A stretch of DNA of 64,000 nucleotides from Absidia repens (Eukaryota > Mucoromycota > Mucoromycetes > Mucorales > Cunninghamellaceae), in NCBI GenBank assembly GCA_002105175.1, contig MCGE01000026.1, forward strand, positions 62,001-126,000. The letters are read 5' to 3'. The position numbers were made by a program, and so were the translations under genes. The notes below the pieces were generated by a model. The model had not been told where the DNA came from. It worked only from the letters and a program-made list of their open reading frames with translations, and searched no databases. Positions 409 through 59,766 of the stretch are shown piece after piece (position 1 is the first letter of the stretch; each line of letters opens with the position of its first letter).

Positions 409-2758
409 GCCAGGAAGAATCCATGGGCAATACATCATCATCAAAAAGTCAATTTCAATTGTCCCTACAATATACCAACCAACTCCCTTTTCAGCCATCA
501 TACGTCAGAAATAGTCAATTTGTTCAATAGATATATATAAAAAAATCATTTATTTCCATCAATAAAGTCATGTTATTTTCATTTGTATCAACTTTCAACT
601 AGTCCAATATGCCTTGGTTTTATTTTTTATTTCATCACATCAGCTATATTAATATTAGCCTAAATTAACATGTAAACTATTGCGCTAATCCAAACGCCAA
701 CATGTATCTTATAAGCCACAGTCACGATGATCGCCGATTCTTGAAGAGGAGGTACAAAACGCCAAAAATAGGCAGGTGATCCAGAGAGAAAGGGAAGTGC
801 TACCAGATTACATTCTAAAGGAAAAGAAACCAAAGTATCAGCGTTTTCTTCAATTTTTTTTTTTTTTTTTTTCGCATTAAAAGTGTTTTCCTCAATTAGA
901 CCGAATTGCACCATATTGTCTGGAAAGGCATCAAGAGATGAGAATAACCAGGCTGCCGATGTTGAATGATGGCAATTACTGCCATAAGAAGAGAGCCACC
1001 ATGTTGGTGATGCGTATCGTGTTGATGTAAAAAAACAATATAAGGAAAAACGAGTTCGCTTTTTGTATCTAGTGGCCAAATAAAATAATTCAAATCCCGC
1101 CCACGTGAAATATATATTTTCTCTCTTCCGGCTGTTTTATTTTTTCGACTCTCTTTCTTTTTGTTTATTTTTTTTCCCCCCTTTATTTTTTTCTCCACCA
1201 TTCAACTTCTATGGGGTTCTTTTGGACTTAGAATAGCGTTAGGACTAGTTTAGAAGCGTTTTCAGAAAAGGGATTACAAAATGCATGGGGAAATTCTTTC
1301 ATTTTGGATCTAGGATCTGATGTCACCATTAGTCGGCTTTTCGGGACCTCCATTAGCTTAGCTTAGCGTTAGTTTGCTCATAGTTTGTATCTATATCTGA
1401 ATAAATTATGTCTCTTTTACATACTGAATGAAAACTATCCGACTAGTCTCTTTTCATGTCTAAAGCAATAGATCCCTTTTTACGGTTGTCCTTTGATATT
1501 AGTATTGACTATTCTCCAGCTCCCACTTTAGGTCATTACTGAGCATTGTTCTGACCTCACGTTAGTCTCTCCCCCATACTTCATCTACCATACCTTCCAT
1601 TGCATCCCTTGTTAAATGAGTCTCTCACCTTTAGTTTCAGTATATACCAAATACGTTTCAATAAAATATACCTTTTTATTAAAGTACTCTGACACATTTG
1701 ATAAAACAAAGTCTATAATGTAGTTTTTATGTGAGTGTCCTGCAAAACACTATTCTTTAATTCATCCGCTATGACCACTTCCTCATCCGTACGGTAGAAA
1801 CTAGTTGGCAGTGTTAGATCACTTACTATAAAAGGTGACCTTATTCCTCCTCGGCCAACCATATAAATAATTATAGGCTGCTCTGTTGCGTGTAGCTGTC
1901 ACTATAGAATATTCATCATTGCAATCTAGCTTATATATGAATACTCACCTTATCCCTTTTGGATTATTGACCGGTTTGACAGTTTTAAGTGACATGATAT
2001 GAAACGTAGTGGTACTCCCGCTCTATGATTCATATCAAACAACCTAGACCGCGCTGCCAGCGTAACCTCTACCAGAGTGGACATACTGTACATATCCAGC
2101 TCGTTGTTTTTTATTCATTTATTTCAGGTGTGATATTATAATTTCCCTGACATGGAACCGTCTACTAAGGTGCACAATGGCTATAGACTCTTTAACTTTA
2201 TCAAAAGCCACACTTCAACTTTTCCTTCCTGACACCAGCAAATCGTTTTTTGTTTCCTTTTTTTTTTTACATGTGTGGAAATGACTATCACATATATGCG
2301 TGTATGAACACAATGCCAGACTTTACCCTTCCGAAAAACCCACTTTGACACTGTTCCAAACCTCTGGCTCAGTTATTCAATTATAAGTCAGAGCTCAAGC
2401 TCCTGGTAATTTTTTTATAAGCACGGTACGCAAAGTTTATAAATTATATGAATAGGGAGTACAAGATATATACGTATATATAATGACTAATGAATATGAA
2501 TTCAAATACATTTTGTTGTATTTCAAGAGAAATAGGCATGTTTAATTTTCTTACTACTGATGATTTTTCTCGTCCAAGCTTTTTTTGTACACCGCCAATA
2601 AAATTCACATGGTCTTTTTTACTCTCTCTCTCTCTCTTTTTTTTTTTTTACTGTAAACTCGTCTTCATTCATTATTTTTCTTGGTATTAGTACCTCTTCG
2701 ACACTCTTTTTCTTTCACCTTCTCTCCTTTATTCAGCAACAGCAACATACTATTGACA
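409..2758. other. Intergenic region containing a long repeat copy
   Basis: No convincing gene is seen. It holds A/T tracts, copy A of the dispersed repeat (from about 1092) and, at its right end, a pyrimidine-rich leader before the gene starting at 2759. Confidence 0.6.
1092..2110 (+). repeat. Dispersed repeat family, copy A (long)
   Basis: The left edge is marked by AAATCCCGCCCACGTG, followed by an AT-rich TATA-like stretch and a C/T tract to about 1200. The conserved core runs 1200-1420 (GGATTACAAAATGCATGGGG, then CTTTCATTTTGGATC, ending in a variant poly(A)-like motif). The homology with the copy at 39.9 kb continues downstream through the TTAGTCTC...ATAGATCCC block near 1440-1475, the CAATAAAATATA block near 1660 and the ACTATAGAAT block near 1902. 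The right edge is approximate. Confidence 0.8.
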
Positions 2759-13315: not shown

Positions 13316-14426
13316 GACTTATTAGAGGTAGCATGAGGGAAATAATTGGGGGCGGATCTGAGCAATGATCAACGCTAATCTAAAGGGACAAATGTAAAAA
13401 AGGATCGAAGTATACGGTATGTACAATGTAGACAAGACAAGAGAAAGACTATAAATGGATATTTTTTTATTCAAGCAGAGCAACTGCCAATATTAATCTA
13501 AAGGAGAGATGGTAAAAAGGGGATCTACTGTACAGTACAGTATAGTACATGGCAAGAGAGAGTCTAATGGGACATGTTTCATTGAAGGAAGCAAAAAAAG
13601 AGATATGATTTTATTCAGATGTAGAAGATGGAGATACAAACGATGAACAAACTAATATTAAACTAAGCTAATGATGAGTCCAAAAGACCGACTAATGGGT
13701 GGTCCCAATTCTTAAATCCAAAATGAAAGAGGTTCCCCATGTATGTTGCAATCCCTGAGCTGAAAACGCTTCTAACCTAGTCCTAAAACTAATCTAAATC
13801 CTTCAAAACCTCAAAAAGGTTACAATTGTGAAGAAAAAAAAAAAAAAAAAGAGAGAGAGAGAGGATGAGGAAGAAAGAAAAAAAAAAGGAAAAATCATGT
13901 GGGCGGCATTCCAATATTTTCTGTGGTCCTCGCTGAACTGCAGCTCTGACTATTTCCTTCGATAGCCTTCTTCATTTCTATGAGGTAAAAAAAACCCCCA
14001 AAAGAGCGTTACAGAAGGTCCCTACAGTCGTAAGTTTTTTTTTGCATATCAAGAGTGGATATAAACAAAGATGTGATGAGTATTTTTATTTGGAACAATA
14101 TGGGAAAGAGCAAACATAGCAAGACGAGTATTTGTGCATGGATATCAAAGATTATTTTTTTATTGATACAGAATAATTTTTCACTAATCTAAAATGACAA
14201 AGATTCAAGGAAAGCCACCTAGAATAAAACCAGAATAGGTGTGGACTTGAAAAACAAAAGTCTATACTAATTGATGAGGGAGGGAATGAGCGAAACTAGA
14301 GTGAAAGATTAAGGGGGATGGATACAACAGATGAAGGGAGGCGTAGGCGGGGTTTGGTTAATGATATTATACTAATACCACTAATTTCAATTCTAAAAAT
14401 GATGTAGATATAAACAAATGAGATAT

Positions 14427-21577: not shown

Positions 21578-23913
21578 AACCGATTGGACTAGATTTAGTT
21601 AGTTTATCTTCTTTTTCTTTTTCTTCTTCTTCTTATCTCCCTCTTTTTTTTTTTTTGTTCATGTTTCGTTTACATGCGTCCATCCCTTCCCAACCTTCCC
21701 GCTATTTTCCTTCCTCCCCTTTTTTTTTTTTTTGATTAATACCGAGTGTTGACCACTTGCTTATACATGTTTATTTATTCTCCCCTGTTTTTTTTTTATT
21801 GTTACTAGTTTGACACGTTAATGATTCAATAAAATATACATTACATTTATTTTTCATACTATTTAACTTGATTTGGAAAAAAAATAAGGGATGTGGGTTA
21901 TATGAAATGCTCTTCTTCTTTTTTGTGTGTGTGTGCGTGTGTTTGTTTGTTAATGCTGCACCCCTTGGTTTTATCATATGACGAATTACTATTAACCCTT
22001 GTCTCTCTCTCTCTTTTTTTTTTTTTTAATTTCTCGCACCTTCATTGTAGCAAATGGTAATAGCCGAAAAAAAAAAAAATCGATCTACAAGTCAATTATA
22101 CAACAAATCATGCTAAAAACAACAGGTACTACCATTGATTCTCGGACATTCAAACCATGACAGAGAGGCCAAAAAATTGACAGCAATAGTATGTTGTTGC
22201 TTTAAAACAGCAATAATAATGATAATGATAATAATAAAAAACCACTGGGCCCCTTTATTTTGATCGAGACTACTGCCTTCTTTAATTACCATGAGCAAGT
22301 TCTGGATACATCTTTTGCGACATCAAACAGTAGCATATCAAAATACTCTCCCCTTTATTGGCATGAACAGCAAACTTTTTCGGCACATGACACATTTTAT
22401 CCTCCCCTGTCCTCTCTCGCTCATTTTGCCTAAAGTCACAAATCGGATGGTTGGCCGATAGGATAACGAATGCATGGATACAAATTGTTACATATGATCA
22501 TCGATCAATCGATCGCTGTTTTTTGATGGTGGTGGTAGTAGGGGAGGGGGAGGGGAAATGTTGTGAGCGCGGTAAGCAAATCACGACTCTTTTTTTTTTA
22601 AAACAAAAAAAAAAAAAATCAATTTATTTCTTTGATGACTTTCTGTATTTGACTGACAATGGTCATGGTTGGCCACCTTCCCCGCCTTCTACTTCTTTTT
22701 TTTTTTGGCAAGGCGATGATAGGGAGAAGGAATCCTTTTATCGCCTTTGTCTCTTTTGCTTGGGGGGGTAGTGGTTTTTGATAGGGTGGTATTAAAAATC
22801 TCTCTGTGATCTCGTGCTCTGGTGGAAGTCAGCTTGGGGTGTGCGAAAAAAAAAAAACAGCTGGGAACTTTTACATTCCGACCTACATGAATTTCTATTT
22901 TTATTTCTTTTCCTCTCCCGCTCCTTTTTTTCCGTTTCTCTTTCTTTTCTGAACATCATCATTGGAGACTTTCATGAAGTGATTGTGTGATCTTGGATTA
23001 GTGGTTAGAACTTGAATCAGAGGCATTAATAATATGCAATATAAACATGCATGGGGATCCCCTTTCATTTTGTATTCGCGATTTGGTGTCATTATAGGAT
23101 TAGCTTAGTCTCTCTTAGCTTGGTAGTCGTCATACTTTATACCTACATCTAAATAAAATGTTTCTTGTCGTTTTCTCCATAATCTCATTTATATGTTTGA
23201 TTGTTTTGTCGAATGGTTGGGTGTATTTGTGTATAGTAATAAAAAACTGATGTGCCTGTAGCTCTCGGTGTAGGGGGAAAAAAAAATGCTGCCCAATTAT
23301 TATCCTCAGTGCTAATGGATATATACTGTATGCGTAAAAAATAGTAGATATGGATGTGTGTAAAAATAAAATATTATGGTCAGCATCCTCTTCAAGACCC
23401 GTTTTGTGGGCTAGAATGATTGATGACTTGATCTAAGGATGAGAAAGAGAAAAGAGTATACGAAGCAACGGTGACATCGTCATTCGGACGGGAGGAGTTA
23501 AAGGATAGATACCCTAATGCCAAATGTCATGTAAAAATGACAGTCTATACTATGAGCTGGAATAAAATATAAAAAGTTATCTCATATGCACCTCGAGAAA
23601 AAAGACAAGGATTGCTGTCTTATGTAAGAATTTTCGGTGATAGATGCGTCGACAACTGGTAAAGAGAAAGAGAAAATAGATGCATAAAGTATGCATTGGC
23701 ATGCATGAACCCTCCTTTTATTATTATTTCTCGAGTATTTGCTTATTTAAAAAAAAAAAAAAAAAGTACATACTTGAAGGAATAACAGGCAATGTACATA
23801 AGAATTTTGATATTGATAGGCAAGGATAATCATGCCGTTTTTTATTATTATATGTATAAAAAAAAAAGAAGGGACATTATTCAAAAAAAAAAAAAAAAAG
23901 ACAGAAAGTTTTT
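21578..23913. other. Intergenic region with degenerate repeat copy F
   Basis: It starts with the NoxR-like 3' UTR (AATAAAATA near 21826). It then holds long T and A tracts, repeat copy F (about 22900-23175), and a run to 23913 with A-runs and no supported gene. Confidence 0.55.
22900..23175 (+). repeat. Dispersed repeat family, copy F (degenerate)
   Basis: It keeps the core order of the family: a C/T tract, CTTGGATTAGTGGTTAGAAC, AAACATGCATGGGGATCCCC, CTTTCATTTTGTATTCGC, then ACCTACATCTAAATAAAATG. The upstream CCCACGTG box is not recognisable and the hairpin arm is altered, so this is the most diverged copy in the window. Confidence 0.6.
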
Positions 23914-38859: not shown

Positions 38860-38942
38860 AGGCAAGATGGCCGAGTTGGTCTAAGGCGTCACGTTAAGGC
38901 CGTGATCTCTTCGGAGGCGTGGGTTCAAATCCCACTCTTGTC
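38860..38942 (+). tRNA. tRNA-Leu (anticodon AAG), no intron
   Basis: It folds as a type II tRNA. Acceptor GGCAAGA pairs with TCTTGTC, and the D arm carries box A (TGGCCGAGTTGG). The anticodon stem is TCACG/CGTGA around the loop TTAAGGC with anticodon AAG, reading CUU. A long variable arm with a TTCG loop follows. The T arm GTGGG TTCAAAT CCCAC contains box B. The discriminator base is A. A TTTT run follows within about 10 bases as a pol III terminator. No intron is present between positions 37 and 38. Confidence 0.95.
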
Positions 38943-41708
38943 AATCTTTTGCCCAAAATCACCATTTTGCGGAGTTCATTGTGACATTCCTTTTTAATTT
39001 TGGTTGTTAGATCGTAACTGGAAATTCTTTTTGTAGGTTTTTAATTTTTTTCAGTGTGCGCATGAACTTTTTTGGATGAAGTTCAACCGATTGTAGCAAG
39101 TCAAAAAAAATCAGACTCAGCTGTCAAAAGTTTATAAGAAAGGTATTCCAAAAGTTGGAATAAAAGATAAACAACAAGTGTTGGTGGTTTAAAAAAAACC
39201 GTGATAATAAATTTATTGATAAAAATATATATAAAAAAAAAATTCATTTTCTTTTTTTTTTTTTTCTAGTATAGTATTTATACTGTTTTTTAAAAAGATT
39301 TCACTACTATTGAGTTTACATTAAAGCAGAACTCATTACTGGAGTTCTCACTATTGTATATACATTTTATCAAATACCGATATTCCATAGCACAATCAAT
39401 AGACATACACACGTCCCTTTCACTCTACATATGTGTACAGTGGATATGCATTAAAATAATGCACCGAGCACGACGGTTTGATCAAGTCGTCAAATACCCG
39501 ACCATTTGCCATTTTAGGGAAAATAAATTATGACGGCTTTGATCTATCATCATTAAATAATATGCGTTAGTAGGATATAATTCAACTGTATTTCAATTAT
39601 ATTTATCATTGAACTCTGAGCAATAAGATGGTTTGCAACCAATATGGTGCAGCTCAAAACACAATAAAGAATAAATTAACTCTCATGGAAATTCTGTGAA
39701 AAGAACCTTTTATATTGTTTTATAATAAAACCCTTTAACCACAGGATATGATAATCAAGGTGAGAAGTAACCTAGTTACGTGATCAGCCGTTGACTGTAA
39801 TAAAATCACTTGGGCGTTTAAAACAGGTTGGGTTTCGCAGACAAAAATGGCATTTTAAATCCCGCCCACGTGGATTTTATTTACTCCAGGTTTTTTTGTT
39901 TGTGGTCTCTCTCTTTCTTTTCATTTTCATTTTTTCATTTTCAATTTTTTCATTTTTTTTCATCATTCAACTCCTTTGATGTTATATTGGACTTAGATTA
40001 GCGTCAGGTCTAGTTTAGAAGGGTTTCCAGCTTAGGGATTACAAGATGCATGGGGAAACCCTTTCATTTTGGATTCAGGATTTGGGATCACCATTAGTTG
40101 GTTTTTAGGAGCCTTCATTGGCTTGGTTTAGTATTAGTTTGTCCATAGTTTGTATCTACATCTGAATAAAATATTTTTCTTTTTTTTTTAAATGATTTAT
40201 TATAATGAATAGTTAAGTGTCACATTAGTCTCTCGCATGTCATGTGCAATAGATCCCTTGTTTACTGCCATCACCACTTTTGACTGTGACGACAGTTGTT
40301 GTGTTTTCAATAACAAATATCCCTTTAGTCTTTATCATTAATTGTACAGAGTACCTTAGCTCCAATTTTATCTTAGCCTTTTTAGATTAGCGTTGAACAT
40401 TCATCGGTCATCCTCATGCTTTCTGTTATGGGTCCTTCTCGTAGTTTCCTTGTTACAATGACCTTTCTACTTTAGGTTTAATACACCACAATATGCTTCA
40501 ATAAAATATGACAATTAATCAACCATCTTCTGACGCATCGTATATTAAGCAATGTTGCTATTATAGTTGCTTTGTGAGTGAGCTACCAATACTTCCTCCC
40601 ACTGTATGTATATTCTCCCGTGCCCCGCTAACTGGTTGTCATTCTCAGTTCACATACTATTAAACGTAGTCATATTACTGCTTCACCAAACATATAAATA
40701 AATATAGGTCGTGCCATGTAGCTGCACTATAGAATGTTTTGCACTTACACATGATTATTTGCTCCCACACCACATAGGGCTTAGCGGCTTGTTAGCAGTT
40801 GCATGTCACTTACTTTGAAACGTAGCCCTGTTCGGTCACTATCAGTCATATCAAACAATTTAAGCCGTATCATCAGCGTATCTTTCATACTGTCTATATC
40901 CTGCTCTTTTTTTTTATTTTTATTTTTTTCTTTTTTACATGAGGTATACATACTAATAATAGTAAAAGAAGAAGTTTAAACTAAACCCTGTTAAGCCCAA
41001 GGACTCAAAATAGCGGGGAACTTTTGTCTACTTTCATCAAAAACTGCATTTCAACATCGCCCTTACTCCCTTGACCAGGAGATATATGTGAGATTGAATA
41101 TATAAAATTGCGGATTGCTGAATTGTACCATAGAAAGAAAAAACGACGGATCATCGTGACTCCTCATCAGAGCTATACAAATGATGAAATATACATTCCC
41201 ACTCTGCCCAATAATACATAGCGCCACTGCAGAACCTCTCTTTGCACTTGATTCCTCCATTTGGACACAAATATCAATAAAACAAAAATATTTATTTATT
41301 TTACTTTATTTGATGTTTAGATAAAACACAAAAGCCAAGAAAAAAAAAGTAACAAACAAACACCGGAATAAAAGAATCAAATGAAATGATACAAAAAAAA
41401 AAAAAAAAAGGTACTATGGTAGTGGACATAAAATAAAAAAAGAATGATATCAATCTTTGTTTTTGTTTTTTTTTTTTTTTGAAAAAAAATGAGTATGGTA
41501 ATAAAAAAACAATAAAAAAAGTAATAGTAATAATATGTATATAGAAAAAGGGAAACTAAAAAGATGTGTGAGGTGATAATAATAAAGAAGAAATAAAAAT
41601 ATAAGATCAACTAAAGGGAAAGAGAAGCAAAAAGGGAGGGATATACTATACTAGTTCACATTGACACACCAGAAGGGGATAGAGGGGAGCGGCAAACATA
41701 TACACCGC
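38943..41708. other. Large intergenic region holding repeat copy B
   Basis: It contains AT-rich sequence without coding signal, repeat copy B (about 39858-40910), and from 41290 to 41700 A-rich DNA that forms the 3' flank of the LisH/WD40 gene. No gene is supported. Confidence 0.6.
39858..40910 (+). repeat. Dispersed repeat family, copy B (reference copy)
   Basis: This is the best preserved long copy. It has AAATCCCGCCCACGTG at the left edge, TTTTATTTA about 10 bases later, and a C/T tract to 39960. Next comes TTGGACTTAGATTAGCGTC, a perfect-armed hairpin (40018-40028 with 40054-40065), CTTTCATTTTGGATTC, and CATCTGAATAAAATA at about 40160. Downstream blocks shared with copy A include TTAGTCTCTCGCATG...ATAGATCCC, CTTCAATAAAATATG and TAGCTGCACTATAGAATG. 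No ORF fits the conservation. The right edge is approximate. Confidence 0.85.
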
Positions 41709-52218: not shown

Positions 52219-53829
52219 TTTAGCATATTCCCACATCCCCCACCCCCCCACCCTCCTCTTTGTAGTCTAGTTTTATTATCTCCACTCCCTCCTCTGTTCC
52301 TTTTTATTATAAATATTTTTTTTTTTTTTTTTTTTGATAACCTGCCACGCACACACCTTGTTTTTATTATCCAACACACGCCTTTTCTCTTCCTTAGTTA
52401 CATATACACCCAAATTATCATACGCATATAATAAAAGCAACCATTTATTGTCTTTTTTTTTTTTTTTTTACTGTTTTCTTTGTCAAATAGCAATTCGGCT
52501 GCTTTAATTTAGTCTTCGTAAACTGCAGTTTAATGAGAGACCACAGGGAATTTTCAAATCCCGCCCACGTGAATATTTATTTACACCCAATTTTTATTTT
52601 TTCCCTCTCTTTCTTTTCATTTTCATTTTTGCCCTTTTTTTCTTCACCATTCAACTCATTTGAGGTTATAATGATCTTAGATTAGTGTGAGGACTAGTTT
52701 AGAAGGGGTTTCGGAACAGGGATTACAAGAAACATGGTGAAACCCTTTCATTTAGGATCTAGGATTTGGACTACCATTAATTGGCTTCTTAGCGTTTCCA
52801 TTAGCTTATTTTAGTATTCTAGTTTGTCATAGTTTGTATTTATATATGAATTAATACTGTTCAATAAAATATGTTTCTTTTTACATGCTTCAATGAAAAA
52901 TGACCCATTAGTCTCTCTAATGTGTAGATCCCTAATTACTACTCTAGATTAATGTTGACGGTTGTCACCCTTCAATAAAAGATATCCATTTATAGTGTTT
53001 CTCGTGCGTTGTCTTCCTCGTACTGTATATTATATCTCTTTTTACATTCGTCCCTTTAGATTGTTATTGATTATTCATCAGATCTCCAGTAATCTTCCTC
53101 ATGTGACCTCGAATAGATTCTTTGTAGTGTGTTTTTGCTGTGTATTGCTGGCGTGGGTTTGCCCGTGAGGGGTGAGGTATTTTTTTAGACTATTTTATTG
53201 TTTTTACTGTAAAAATAAAATCCTCTCTTGCATATGATCTATTTCATATATCACTAGCTCAAAACACTATTTCTCACCAATATAATGAGGATCCTCGTAA
53301 TTTGTATCTAACTTCACTCACTTCTCCACCCCCCCCCCCCAAAATTTATGATGCTTAGTAGGCCTCATCCAGCTAAAAATTCATGTTTTCCAGAAAAGTA
53401 TACCCATTTCTGTGATTTATCGTTATTCCAAGTATCATAATACGGATCCCTACTGTATAATGTCTGAACCACGCCTAGCCACATTGGTTTCATTATCATT
53501 CACCACCCCCCTGTTTATCATACATAAAATGAAAAATTCTCATCATCATTTGACTAAAAAAAAGAGGCAACACTAATCAGCATACCCACAAATATATAGT
53601 CTTCGAGGAAAACATACTGTTGCTGTCACTGATAAAAGACGTAATAAGACAAGACTAGACAAAATACTCTAACACACATACACACATACTCTACACATAC
53701 ACATACACATACACATATACGCATTCACAGTACACACACATATATATATATCCCAACCAATATGTAAAATAAGACGAGACAAAGTATACAAGACAAAAAA
53801 AAAATAGATAGAATCTTTATTTTATTTAA
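52219..53829. other. Intergenic region with repeat copy C
   Basis: After the PRO1 3' UTR (T-run 52317-52335) comes repeat copy C (about 52556 to at least 53130). Beyond it is AT-rich sequence with a C-run near 53331-53340 and an ACACAT microsatellite near 53670-53750. No gene is supported. Confidence 0.55.
52556..53130 (+). repeat. Dispersed repeat family, copy C
   Basis: It starts AAATCCCGCCCACGTG, followed by ATATTTATTTA and a C/T tract. The core contains a hairpin (52702-52712 with 52739-52749), ATTACAAGAAACATGG, CTTTCATTTAGGATCTAGG, and at about 52860 TTCAATAAAATATG. The TTAGTCTCTCTAATG...TAGATCCC block follows near 52910. Homology to copies A and B continues weakly to about 53130 or beyond. 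Confidence 0.8.
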
Positions 53830-56800
53830 TTATTGGGCAATGACTTTTTTCAATTCAAACAAACGTTTCGACAAATCATCACGTTCATCTTCACTTTGGG
53901 CATACCGCATTTTGATATCGATGAGAAGGGCTTCGGTGGCGGCAAGTTGGTCTTCCAGATGGGCGTTCCTTTCATTCAGTGAAGCATTTTCGTTACAGAG
54001 GGCGTCGAATTCCGTCTTATAGTTTGCCTCGACCTTGGATGGTAAAGCTGCCGTTTCCGATCGTAACGAATCCACCACCGTTTTCAGAGATGCCTGCTCG
54101 TCTTGCAATTGCTGTCGTTGGTGCTGACTGTCCTGCAGTTGTTCCGTGACGTCCTGATATTCCTTTTGCGAGTCGGTTTTTGATTGGGAAAGCTGATCCA
54201 CCGTGTGCTGAAGACTGGCTTGTTGTGCTTGTAGCGATGTCAATAACTGCACATCTTGCTCGTCCTTCGCCACCTGTGCCTTGTGTTCCTTTTCCAATTG
54301 CACAAGTCGTTTTCGTGGTATGTCCCATTCATTGGCATCGTGGACTAATTGGTGTTCATCATCCTAAGAAAAAAACGAAGAAGACAGAAACCGGCGCGCA
54401 CGCAAGTGAGTGTTGGTTGTTGTATATAAGAGTGTGCGGATTTTTTTTTTTTTTTTTACCTTGTATTCTTCAAATAGTCCGGTTTTCAGGAAATCCAACA
54501 AATGTTCAAAATCCAATTGCAATAGATGAGTCTCGTTCCGTTTGAGTAATGCCAGGGCAAATTTCAGCACTGCCTCGAGACCTTGAGCAAACATCATATC
54601 ATAGATTCGGAAGACAAGCTCCAAGGGGAATTTGTAAGCAAAGAGCGTCATGAACCATTGGGAAGCATACATGGTAGCATCAATATCAAGGCGTTTGAAA
54701 TGACGAGAAATATGGGGTAAATGGTCAGCAACAAGACAATCAAATTGGTATAATCGTAGATGGAGTCCTTCCATGTTGGGGGTAAAATGGCCGCGAAGAC
54801 CATAACTTGACATGAGCCTGATCAATACACAGAACGCTTCTTCATCAGGCATCTGAGTTTTTTTTTTTTTGCCATAAGGAAAAACAATATTTTTTGTTAA
54901 TACACAGGGGGGTTTTTTTTTGATTTTTTTTTTCCTGAAGGACTTACATTCAATAACAGAGGACCTACAATAAAAGCAAGACCTTGGCAATAGCCCACCT
55001 CGGTATCGTAAACGCTGTAGGCTCGGATCACGTTGTACAAGCCTTCTTGCCCCACGCCGCCTTGGTCCTTGAAGTAAGTATGATCGGGGAAAGTACGGGC
55101 CAAATCACGTTGAATCATTTTGTCATAAGGGCTAGAGGTCCGAAGTAAATCAATGTATTGTTCATCCAAGGTTTTGCTATTGGACAGCAATTGCCACACC
55201 ATCCCACGCAGTGGCGGAGGCACCCCTTTTTGCACTTGACTTGGTAAGGTTTTGCTTTTTTGTACTTGATCAAAATCACAAACGACAGAGGTCCAGAATT
55301 CTATTCAAAAATAAAAATAAAAATAAAAAAATTAGTAAAATCCCATCTAGTATCTCACTTGGTTACTCACAGCAACAACACCAACATCACTTACCCCAAT
55401 CATATTCATCATTGTTGTTTGGTTCAGTGCCACCGCCGCCAACGCTGCTAGTGCCAGTACTATTTCCGCCACTGGAAGACGCAAGGACTAGACTTTGTCG
55501 GATGGTTTGACGTTTCAGATTCAATAATCGTTGGGCCTTGGGATCGTTTCCATTGTCGCTGTTTAATTGTTCCATTTGCGCCAAAAGTGATTCCTGAAAC
55601 CCTGGTAATGCACAGCTGGGCGGTCGAGACTGTCGTTTTGTGAAATTGGCGGAAGGGCGGACCACTTTCTTGGCGTTGGATGCTGCTGTTGTGTTGTTGT
55701 TATTGCTGCCAGAGGCGGTTGATTTGAACGGTGACCATAAACCGGAGACAAATCGTTGTGTGGTGCTTGATCGTGATGGTGTCATTGTAGGCGTTGTTGT
55801 TGTTGCTGTTGTTGTGGTACTATGGGATGATACTGGTGTGGGTGATGTCGTATCAATGGGTGTCGGTTTCATGGATCGATCTTTTGGAGGGAGAGGAGGT
55901 AGTTCAGAGGATGCAGTTGTCGGAGATTTGACTGATTTGGTGACAGTGTTGGTCATATTGGATACTGCATTTGTAGCCACTTGTAAAATCGATGATTTGT
56001 TTGTGATGTCTGTTGTTGATTCCACTGGGGTGGTGGCACTGGCATTAGGGTCTTCCAAGAGAGATATTTCGTTGAGATCCGAGGCTGAAACAGCACTGAG
56101 ACGATGTGCGCTTCTGGTGTTGGCGGTGGAATCGGTGGTGGAAAGGTGATGGGGGTGTTCATGATCTGAATTCTCCAAATTCACCGCGCTGTAATCTTCA
56201 TCCATGGCGACTGATTTTTTCAAAGCATCCGTACTGAATTCGTCGCTGTCCAGTTCATCATCCAAGGTTGGTGTAGTGGTACCGGTGTTTGCTGATTGGC
56301 TACGATCCATGACCATAGGCACCTCGTCAAAGCCATCATCCACCGAGGAAGATGAAGGAGATGAGTGGTATGAAGAGACATTGGGATTGTTTGAAGGGGT
56401 CAAAGAGTCAGAAGGTTTGTTATTATCCAAGGAAGTAATTTGATCATGATATTCGGTTTCTTGGGAGGTCCGTTGTAGCTCTGTTTGCTGATCCATCGAA
56501 TCCAAATGGAAGGATTCATTGTCCATATATTCACTTTCGTTGGAATAGACGCTAGAAGAATCGCTATCACTGTCGTTATGGCGAGATTTCGGGGTTGGGG
56601 TTGGGGTTGGTGCTGGATGTTGGTGTTGATGTTGTTGAGAATGGTGAGATTGTGCAGGCTCGAAGTCAGAATCTGAGCCAGAGGTATCATCATCGAGTTC
56701 ATCATCGGTACGGACATGAACAACACAGCCTACATTATCTTCATATCTTGTCTTGTGAGGATTTTCCAGAGGATCTACAGCTGCAATGTAGTCTTTGTGG

Positions 56801-56943
56801 TCGAAAGTATCAGAGGATCGAGTAGAGGCATCAGAATAATAGGCGACATCTTCATCACCATAGTCCGAGACAGAGTAAGTTGAGTGATCAGACTCTAGAC
56901 TTTGCTGCAAAGGTGAAGGTCTATTTTCAGTGAGCGTACTCAT
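53830..56943 (-). CDS. GYP5: TBC-domain RabGAP, Gyp5/EVI5 type
   Basis: Four exons (56943-55395, 55300-54948, 54852-54460, 54363-53830) join in frame to 942 aa. The first roughly 510 residues are acidic, Ser/Thr-rich and disordered. The TBC domain spans about 545-760: GVPPPLRGMVWQLLSNSK, the arginine finger in IQRDLARTFPDH, the glutamine finger in GYCQGLAFIVGPLL, then YASQWFMTLFAYKFPLELVF. A C-terminal coiled coil (LQAQQASLQHTVDQLSQSK to the end) follows, as in Gyp5/Gyl1 and EVI5. Such proteins accelerate GTP hydrolysis on Ypt1/Sec4-type Rabs and act in ER-Golgi or polarised exocytosis. It is divergent from the small membrane protein at 57160, sharing 216 bases. Confidence 0.92.
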
Positions 56944-57159
56944 GGAAGAGCATTAATAACAATAAAAGTGATAAAAGATGAAGGGAAAAAAAAGAGGGGA
57001 AATTGGAAAAAAAAGGAACGAAAATTAAAAAAATATATTTTTTGTACTTGTGCTACTCCTGTTTTAAATATCCGCCCTGGAGTGTCATCAAAAAATGTTG
57101 TCAAGCTTTTTTTTTTTTTTTTTTTTTTTCTCTCTTTCAATATTATATCCAAGCGGACG

Positions 57160-57804: not shown

Positions 57805-59766
57805 AAAAATGTGACATTTATACCCCTTCGTCCCTGCCCTTTCTCTTTTTTGATATAGATGTAGTATACGTAGTGCAATTCATTATATTCATTCACATAT
57901 ACACCCCTTCCCCCCATCTTCTTTTTGTATTTATTTTTTAACTTTAATAAATGCTCTAGTGCACCATTGGAGCTTTGAAAAATCATACGTTTACTGGGTA
58001 TCATGGTTTTTTTTTTTTTTTTTTTTTTGAAATTGTTGGAGTCTAGGATGAAACTAAATGTATCTGTCATTCGCAAATTGGTAGACAGTCCTTTGGGATG
58101 TTTGACCTAATATTATTATATATACGCAATGAAAATAGTGAAGCAAATATATGCGTGGGGCTCAGTGTAGTGGAGGCTATAATGTATTGTAGGGAAGGCT
58201 ACGTTGATCAGTATAAATGGCGGAGCAGAAATTACACCAGTGCTTATACTAAGTGACCTTGAAGCCGTCAACTGTCGCTGGGACTAAAGGAAAGTCTGGG
58301 AGGAAATCTTCGCTGTTAAAAGCGAGAAGGCAAGTGAAATATTTACTAAGAGCGTTTCCACTTCCAAAACGACATTGGTCTAGCTCGCAGAAATAGGGTT
58401 ATGATTCGCATTGAATGGCCTAGAATTGTCAGTCGGTGAATTCTAGAGGCCGGGGGGGGGTGGTAGTGCGTAAGTGAAAAAACAGGAGAAATGTCCTTCA
58501 GCGGTTATTACACTCTTGGTTTGGTCTGAGGGGGCTAATGTAGCAAGAATAGGTTCATATTTTCATATCAAGTAACCTAGAACTGCTAGCCAGTCGCTGG
58601 ACTCTGCGGGGGAAAATAGTTACAGTGGGTAGGGTTGAAGAATGGTATTGATAGGACTCTCAAAAAATAGTCGTATTTTTACTCATTATGAATTGGGTCA
58701 GAGAATGGGCAATAAAAAAACATAATTTATTTGAAGGAATACGGTAGATACTGAGCTAAGAGTGCGGGGTTCAATGTAACGAGGGACTAAATGGAATGAT
58801 CTATAGGAGAAAACATGAAATAGACTAATAGGATAGCAGAAGAATGATCAGAACTAATTAATACGAACAATTGTAAAAAAAATAATAATCTATGATATTG
58901 TATAAGGTATGAGACGGGTTAAAATATTGAAGCCAAACAATAGATGCAAAGGGGGAAGGATGCTAAAAAGGAATCTATTGCACAAAACATGAGAGAGACT
59001 AACGGAACATATTCATCATTGAAGCTTGGGAAAGAAAGACATATTTTATTCAGATGGAGACAAAAACTATGGACAAACTAACACTAAACAAAGTTAATGA
59101 AGACGCTAATAAGCCAACTAATGGTAGTCCAAAATCCTAGATCCAAAATGAAAGGGTTTCACCATGCATCTTGTAAGCCTTGTTCTGAAAACCCTTTTAA
59201 ACTAGTCCTGACACTAATCTAAGTCCAACATACCTCATAGAAGTCGAATGGTGAAGAAAAAAAAAGAAAAAAAAAGAAAGTGAAAAAAAAGAAAGGGAAA
59301 GAGGAAAGGAAAAAAAATTGGGAGAAAAAATAAAAAATCCACGTGTGCGGATTCTGAAATATTTTCTAGCGCAACCTCAATCAACGCAAATCAACCACAT
59401 ACAGAAGCAACCCTTATCCCATCAAACATAAAGTGAATACAAGTGAATACATGTCTGCAGTGTAAAACCACCAGAAAAATAAAATAAAATTTATAAATGT
59501 TTGCCCTTTTTATTTACAAAACTGTTTTTTTCTTGTCATTCAAAAATAAAAAATAATAATAGAATGAAATAAAGCGGAAGAGATAAAAGAAGGACGAGGG
59601 GACTATAAATGGTGAGTGAGGATGAAACTAATGTAACATCAGATATAAAGTAAGCTAAAATGAAGATGCTGATAAAAAGGAAGTAAACGGATGAAGAAGG
59701 GGGAAGTGGAATATGTGTTTGTGTATAAGTACCCCACCGCAACTAAACTACAAGTTATTTTATCCT
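57805..59766. other. Intergenic region with reverse repeat copy E
   Basis: After the 3' UTR with AATAAATG near 57946 and a T-run near 58005-58028, most of the space is reverse copy E and its extension (about 58200-59355). The remainder up to 59766 is AT-rich and forms the GFA1 3' flank. No gene is supported. Confidence 0.6.
58200..59355 (-). repeat. Dispersed repeat family, copy E (reverse, long)
   Basis: Read on the minus strand it starts near 59355 with CCGCACACGTGGATTTTTTA and then a C/T tract. The core follows: arms at 59187-59198 and 59151-59162 of the hairpin, CTTACAAGATGCATGG, CTTTCATTTTGGATCTAGG, and ATCTGAATAAAATATG near 59045. The TTAGTCTCTCTCATG...ATAGATTCC block is near 58975-59010. 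A second diverged TTAGTCTATTTCATG...ATAGATC block near 58800-58835 suggests partial duplication. The far end (58200) is approximate. Confidence 0.7.

Follow-up and report, generated by a model that had tools for sequence, protein, structure and literature searches.

Introduction

Tc1/mariner-type MITEs are short non-autonomous elements with terminal inverted repeats (TIRs) and a TA target duplication. SINE families with a conserved central domain also exist (CORE-SINEs and the like), the solo LTRs of fungal Ty3-type retrotransposons combine a promoter and a poly(A) signal in one dispersed repeat, and foldback or long-TIR elements have arms that point apart and repeated units in their outer parts. 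According to one report (PMC7928374), Tc1/Mariner is the largest transposable element group in the Mucorales genomes that it covered.

The window analysed here, the whole stretch of 64,000 nucleotides of Absidia repens DNA, contains copies of a non-coding repeat, family A, whose module is also present in two other families, B and C. Family B resembles the Tc1/mariner MITEs in its length (~883 bp), 32-bp TIRs, TA flanks and many near-identical copies, but it carries a promoter-to-poly(A) module and no transposase was found between its TIRs (DDE_3; 23 pairs among the matches listed); family A differs from such MITEs in having no detected TIR and in being longer, more diverged and far more abundant. 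As in CORE-SINEs, a short near-invariant core is common to otherwise different element families, whereas the layout of family A is Pol II-like (TATA, pyrimidine tract, AATAAA) and one of the module-bearing families has TIRs. Like the Ty3-type solo LTRs, family A holds a promoter and a poly(A) signal in one dispersed repeat; unlike them it lacks defined ends, has a divergent left arm and showed no internal partner in ~346 kb. With foldback elements it shares arms that point apart and repeated units in the outer parts (at locus L020 the arms lie ~32 bp apart and are 89-95% alike in pieces), but the left arm of family A is decayed and found in only 12 of 49 copies, and no target duplication was seen.

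We propose, with a probability of about one half, that family A is a non-autonomous repeat of ancient origin that has become largely immobile, and that its transcription module continues to move within the non-autonomous transposons B and C. One copy per ~10 kb affects the reading of intergenic space, of convergent transcription and of repeat annotation in this fungus. Furthermore, a single promoter/core/poly(A) module common to a TIR element, a sharp-ended element and an ancient family without ends is unusual modular non-coding DNA.

Results and Discussion

Family A in the window and in the genome

The first-pass annotation had described six dispersed copies with the same ordered blocks, and nhmmer recovered all six with E-values from 8e-118 to 7e-20. 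The first, at 1086..1513 (+; E 2e-109), runs from the promoter-like head (AAATCCCGCCCACGTG, 1092-1107) to the tail block and has its core at 1271-1288 with 1 mismatch. The others of the strong copies lie at 13452..13915 (-; E 2e-100; core at 13737-13754, 3 mismatches), 39835..40738 (+; with tail), 52552..52992 (+; E 1e-106) and 58926..59361 (-; E 4e-107). The extent of the copy at 39835..40738 comes from an all-against-all blastn of the window and the fetched loci, which gave likeness to other loci over 39835-40589 and 40630-40738; its nhmmer match (E 8e-118) covers 39852-40328. Among these five copies the 18-mer core has 1, 0, 2, 1 and 3 mismatches. Because the same five, together with L001-L008, were the seeds of the first nhmmer profile, their E-values are partly circular. 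The sixth copy, at 22872..23166 (+; E 7e-20), lay outside the seed and belongs to a diverged group, being a module copy rather than a full family A copy (78 bits versus 322-378 for the other five).

Four window copies are on the plus and two on the minus strand, and both strands are used genome-wide, in agreement with the described occurrence in both orientations. The copies were also said to lie only between genes, and indeed none overlaps an ORF passing the coding score in the window and 20 10-kb loci, the gene calls being approximate. The proposed size of 0.4-1.1 kb was too small, as part of the copies are alike from ~-0.6 kb to ~+1.2 kb around the head.

We then counted the blocks in the genome (47,368,516 bases or 47.4 Mb, 79 contigs), using each pattern read backwards as a control. 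The core 18-mer GGATTACAAGATGCATGG occurs 3,384 times with ≤2 mismatches (1,669+1,715 on the two strands; control 3), and the best-conserved core 23-mer GGGGAAACCCTTTCATTTTGGAT 4,965 times with ≤3 mismatches (2,460+2,505; control 0), which corresponds to ~one module per 9.5 kb. Counts for the head 18-mer CAAATCCCGCCCACGTGA (≤2 mismatches) and the poly(A) block CATCTGAATAAAATATGTCTC (≤3 mismatches) were 2,143 (1,052+1,091; control 1) and 2,192 (1,093+1,099; control 8), respectively. Hence the six window copies are real and the earlier observation understated the abundance: the genome has several thousand copies, where fewer than a handful would have refuted a repeat family. The description of a mobile or amplified, non-coding and unrecognised element holds. 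The copies do contain pyrimidine tracts, as chance low-complexity likeness would have it, but non-repetitive 18- to 23-mers present thousands of times against 0-8 in the reversed controls refute that explanation genome-wide and leave it a negligible probability. Under a binomial model that assumes 5,500 copies and presumes every copy once to have carried every block, per-site divergence is ~0.08 for the 23-mer, 0.12 for the 18-mer, 0.17 for the head and 0.19 for the poly(A) block.

A second profile run over 345,761 bases (window and fetched loci) gave 95 matched stretches, of which the 54 above 290 bits were taken as family A. Apparent strand domains, seen as plus-strand runs among the matches listed, are probably an artefact, an exact minus-strand core of L015 being missing there. 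A 26-mer of the core had 0 matches in IMG/VR, and neither the core 18-mer nor a description of family A was found in the literature searched (most subscription papers and Repbase lay outside the search).

Layout of the module

Judged from its sequence, the family A unit resembles a short Pol II gene in its layout. Its parts are, in order, CCCGCCCACGTG, a TATA-like stretch, a pyrimidine tract, a segment of ~230 nt that includes a near-invariant core of 40 bp, AATAAA followed by a T-rich stretch, and degenerate tail repeats; in letters, the blocks run ATTTCAAATCCCGCCCACGTGAATATTTATTT, C/T tract, TTCACCATTCAACTT, TTAGATTAGTGTCAGGACTAGTTTAGAAGGGTTTTCAG, core GGGATTACAAGATGCATGGGGAAACCCTTTCATTTTGGAT, ...TTTAGTGTTAGTTTGTC..., CTGAATAAAATATGTCTCTTTTTAC and tail units. 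In the copy at 39835..40738, with all parts on the plus strand, the head AAATCCCGCCCACGTG and the TATA-like ATTTTATTTA occupy 39852..39885, the pyrimidine tract, presumed to be the transcription start zone, 39888..39965, the core 40035..40075, and the poly(A)-signal-like block (GAATAAAATAT... with a T-rich stretch) 40164..40190. Head, core and poly(A) block were assigned from the sequence and the genome-wide counts, and the core from its conservation as well. The tail (40225..40738), defined by profile re-matches and the majority letters of 52 tails, is a series of degenerate repeats, in several of which AATAAA-like sites occur; in many copies part of it (profile positions ~325-418) finds a second match further downstream, which in this copy lies at 40306-40397.

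Of 25 family A copies, 21 contain a 40-nt stretch of ≥90% pyrimidines (100-nt region searched). Such a stretch also precedes the first ATG by no more than 150 nt in 8 of 24 ORFs, compared with an occurrence in 3% of 2,000 random 150-nt stretches. The tract therefore resembles the start zones of this genome.

Conservation of the core

As L001-L028 had been fetched for the exact 18-mer core, statistics on the core were obtained from 25 other copies, namely five from the window, two secondary ones (L024, L027) and 18 from a similarity search with L026, the last of which favour whole-module likeness. The majority letters come from the full set of 60 aligned copies, and six diverged copies were excluded from the family A statistics. 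Identity to the majority letter reached 0.91-0.97 within the core, compared with 0.87-0.92 for the head and 0.90 for AATAAA; it was lower across the tail (0.78-0.89) and most of the tract (0.70-0.76). Invariant columns numbered 57 of 230, compared with 13.0 expected for one rate, and the slowest 45-column window coincides with the core, a result equalled by 6 of 5,000 permutations. In the closest pairs among the 25 the core differs by 10.1% and the flanks by 15.0% (Wilcoxon p 6e-5, the pairs not being independent). The core thus evolves more slowly than its flanks, an effect that is clear but moderate.

Conservation above the flanks could mean a host function instead. Family A would then be a very large host non-coding family under selection, of short polyadenylated RNAs or divergent boundary/terminator units, from which B and C merely picked up the module. 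The invariant columns, the slow core window, the differences of 10% in the core and 15% beside it, and flanks that in some copies are colinear at only ~58-63% identity all speak for such a family; the many degenerate copies, however, look like repeat decay, and constraint on source elements before insertion would yield the same pattern. Core conservation cannot by itself separate selection after insertion from selection on the source elements, and with the structural and positional evidence described below we regard a host family as possible but doubtful. If the core is indeed selected after insertion, this would be a very large functional non-coding set in an early-diverging fungus.

Coding capacity and RNA structure

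No ORF follows the conservation, as had been noted: within the core, conservation is about the same at all three codon positions (215/225, 218/224 and 213/225). The ATG in the core is lost in 5 of the 25 copies not picked by core, and stops follow after 10-31 codons. A small peptide from the conserved ATG was rejected on the codon positions and the lost ATGs, and a protein-coding gene family likewise, no conserved reading frame being found.

An ncRNA gene family, also suggested by the first-pass annotation, is still a candidate. The gene-like layout and the slow evolution of the core agree with it, but structural covariation is absent, with compensatory base changes at 0 of 9 predicted pairs and a covariation term of -0.03 (45 of 54 family A copies aligned). 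The fold energy of the module is ordinary (z -0.34). Rfam gave no match on the window copies, tRNA and 5S included, and the nearest matches were sub-threshold and far below the gathering scores. These results also count against the host family.

Neighbouring genes

For the neighbour count we used 30 copies from the window and 19 of 20 ten-kb loci, which are not a random sample, with our own ORF scoring and leaving out the two half copies of L013, diverged copies and short loci. A scored ORF lies downstream of 23 of the 30 copies (7 have none) and is convergent in 18 of the 23 (two-sided binomial p 0.011), or in 16 of 21 without the two face-to-face L024 copies. Of upstream neighbours 6 of 17 are divergent (p 0.33). 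The convergent excess favours host units; it is not predicted by random old insertions and so counts against our preferred explanation.

One window ORF, at 55387-56952 (-), encodes a Rab-GTPase-TBC protein whose best match is from Absidia repens (100% identity over 25% of the query), the next named matches being from Absidia cylindrospora, Halteromyces radiatus and Cunninghamella echinulata. Elsewhere in the window a tRNA gene (38861-38943) adjoins fragments (38995-39097 and 39111-39254) of another repeat, which is found also in L017, L021 and L039.

Divergent left arm and paired copies

The block ending in the poly(A) site was searched against the 1,250 bases upstream of 49 copies, a set without the L015 and L020 pairs (four copies) and one short-flank copy. 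At E < 0.05 we obtained 12 minus-strand matches, in 12 of the 49 copies and always between -220 and -425, as well as 3 plus-strand matches at -1,091 to -1,141; by position, the plus-strand matches represent the left arm of the neighbour copy in L026 (two matches) and a B element in L042 (one match). By reading, the L001 left arm also holds a core-like string. Given the matches at -220 to -425, family A was probably once a head-to-head module pair whose left arm has decayed past detection in most copies (37 of 49). For host units, the divergent arm ending in the same AATAAA block is a favourable point and its absence from detection in those 37 copies an unfavourable one. A fuller version of this idea, in which ~5,000 scattered non-coding Pol II units (about one per 9.5 kb) began as divergent pairs, mostly converge on the neighbouring gene and function for the host under selection (for example as transcription boundaries or short polyadenylated RNAs), their module having been taken up by at least two transposon kinds, appears unlikely to us.

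Each of the loci L015 and L026 has a pair of outward-facing copies, separated by ~2.1 and 1.6 kb and with 98% complementarity over 434 and 360 nt, respectively; the two L020 arms, ~32 bp apart, are 95% complementary over 192 and 98 nt. Such high complementarity (95-98%, compared with ~80% elsewhere) fits recent local conversion or duplication, and one might suppose that ectopic gene conversion among copies has produced the likeness of the core, making selection unnecessary. Distant copies are not homogenised, however, and conservation does not form one peak, being high in the head, low in the pyrimidine tract and then high again; we therefore consider conversion a quite improbable cause. In L020:3727-4751 the back-to-back A arms are 89-95% complementary in three pieces, and a recognisable head is present in only one of them.

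Ends and age of family A

Among the 54 family A copies there is no common end point. Likeness among copies fades gradually both ways, with ~1/3 still matching another at -600 and 1/5 at ~+1,250, and the longest upstream matches between copies have 58-63% identity. No non-repetitive 10-mer was common upstream and inverted downstream in ≥4 of the 54 copies each, a test in which two low-complexity 10-mers were set aside and which short or strongly decayed TIRs would escape; TATGGTGC-like sites, found singly before one window copy and one L025 copy, were judged near chance level. Sharp ends with a TA target duplication were not found on family A, nor were TG..CA ends with a short target duplication in the 54 copies.

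Without sharp ends or detected terminal repeats, the solo LTR suggested by the first-pass annotation is not supported. A TATA-like box and AATAAA in one repeat, with many single copies, would suit the U3-TATA-R-AATAAA-U5 order of a retrotransposon LTR, but the 54 copies share no end, a related module sits inside a TIR element, and the window and fetched loci, ~346 kb in all, showed no direct A copies around an internal region or gag-pol. The only gag-like ORF seen (L021:8418-9647) adjoins a different repeated sequence, and solo LTRs are accordingly very improbable. The region L021:6545-9647, in which two ~490-bp direct repeats (89% identical) precede this gag-like ORF (409 aa, no Pfam match), is by its arrangement probably an LTR-type retroelement.

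With L026:3300-5800 as query, 40 of 3,908 candidates were scored, and the best match outside its own locus was 83% over ~440 bp; with window:39200-41400, 40 of 3,613 were scored, and matches over 300 bp were 71-83%. Young copies were thus not seen for these two queries, and on this evidence family A copies look old.

Families B and C and a model for the module

The comparison of L018:6011-6896(-) with L042:105-980, aligned at 91%, shows inverted ends TATGGTGCGGCTC(A/G)CTTATAATGTCAAAT on both sides and TA flanks. Family B (~883 bp) thus has the TIRs (32 bp) and the TA duplication of a MITE, as seen in L018/L042 and at the ends of L049. The B TIR occurs 198 times genome-wide (102+96; control 0), and by eye at least 23 TIR pairs are present among the matches listed, 18 of them spanning 880-985 bp; a TIR pair of 3.2 kb lies at C14:98905-102118. 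The best 40 of 2,261 candidates (query included) start at query position ~61-65 and reach at least 947, with 88-99% identity (100% for the query itself). The element holds module profile positions ~48-319, without the CCCGCCCACGTG head. DDE_3, the one transposase domain searched, gave 41 matches, none of which lies inside the 23 B TIR pairs (by eye, among the matches listed), so that no DDE_3 gene emerged as an autonomous partner of B within these pairs.

Family C is ~1.35 kb long (L017:~1566-2918) and has sharp ends, since the same end points recur in a set of 40 scored candidates; the better candidates have 82-92% identity. Comparison of its flanks ATAATAAA / ATAGTAAA with uninterrupted sites in L021 and L039 gives an 8-bp duplication with one mismatch. 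In L049 a 1.76-kb TIR pair is a B element with family C inside, some 290 bp of B being missing.

The non-autonomous DNA element that had also been suggested is supported indirectly, in that the related younger TIR/TA family B carries the module, while no TIR was detected on family A itself. Copy number, layout, absence of coding capacity, divergence between copies and presence of the module in B and C were observed directly; the mobility of family A we infer from its relatives, because it has no TIR, target duplication or sharp end. In the model that we prefer, that of an old and largely immobile repeat, family A would comprise a CACGTG/TATA promoter, a pyrimidine-rich start zone, a ~230-nt transcript with the 40-bp core, an AATAAA site, tail repeats and a weaker divergent left arm, and the module would be transcribed by Pol II. 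A Tc1/mariner-type transposase supplied in trans would move B, and family A may have spread long ago as B does and then lost its ends. The core would have been kept alike because it is functional, either for the element (an internal promoter or an RNA needed for spread) or for the host.

Two further features of the younger families were seen. A B variant, 97-99% identical (L018:5495-6896 and 19 places), passes the right TIR by ~400-570 bases into tandem units with variable ends; correspondingly, 20 of the 40 scored B places (query included) run on to 1009-1011 and have a further ~400-570 bases in common. This variant may have been amplified by another route than plain B. In both loci read (L017:1566-2918 and L049) family C lies at AATAAA-like sites; the site in L049 is the AATAAA of the B module, which C directly follows.
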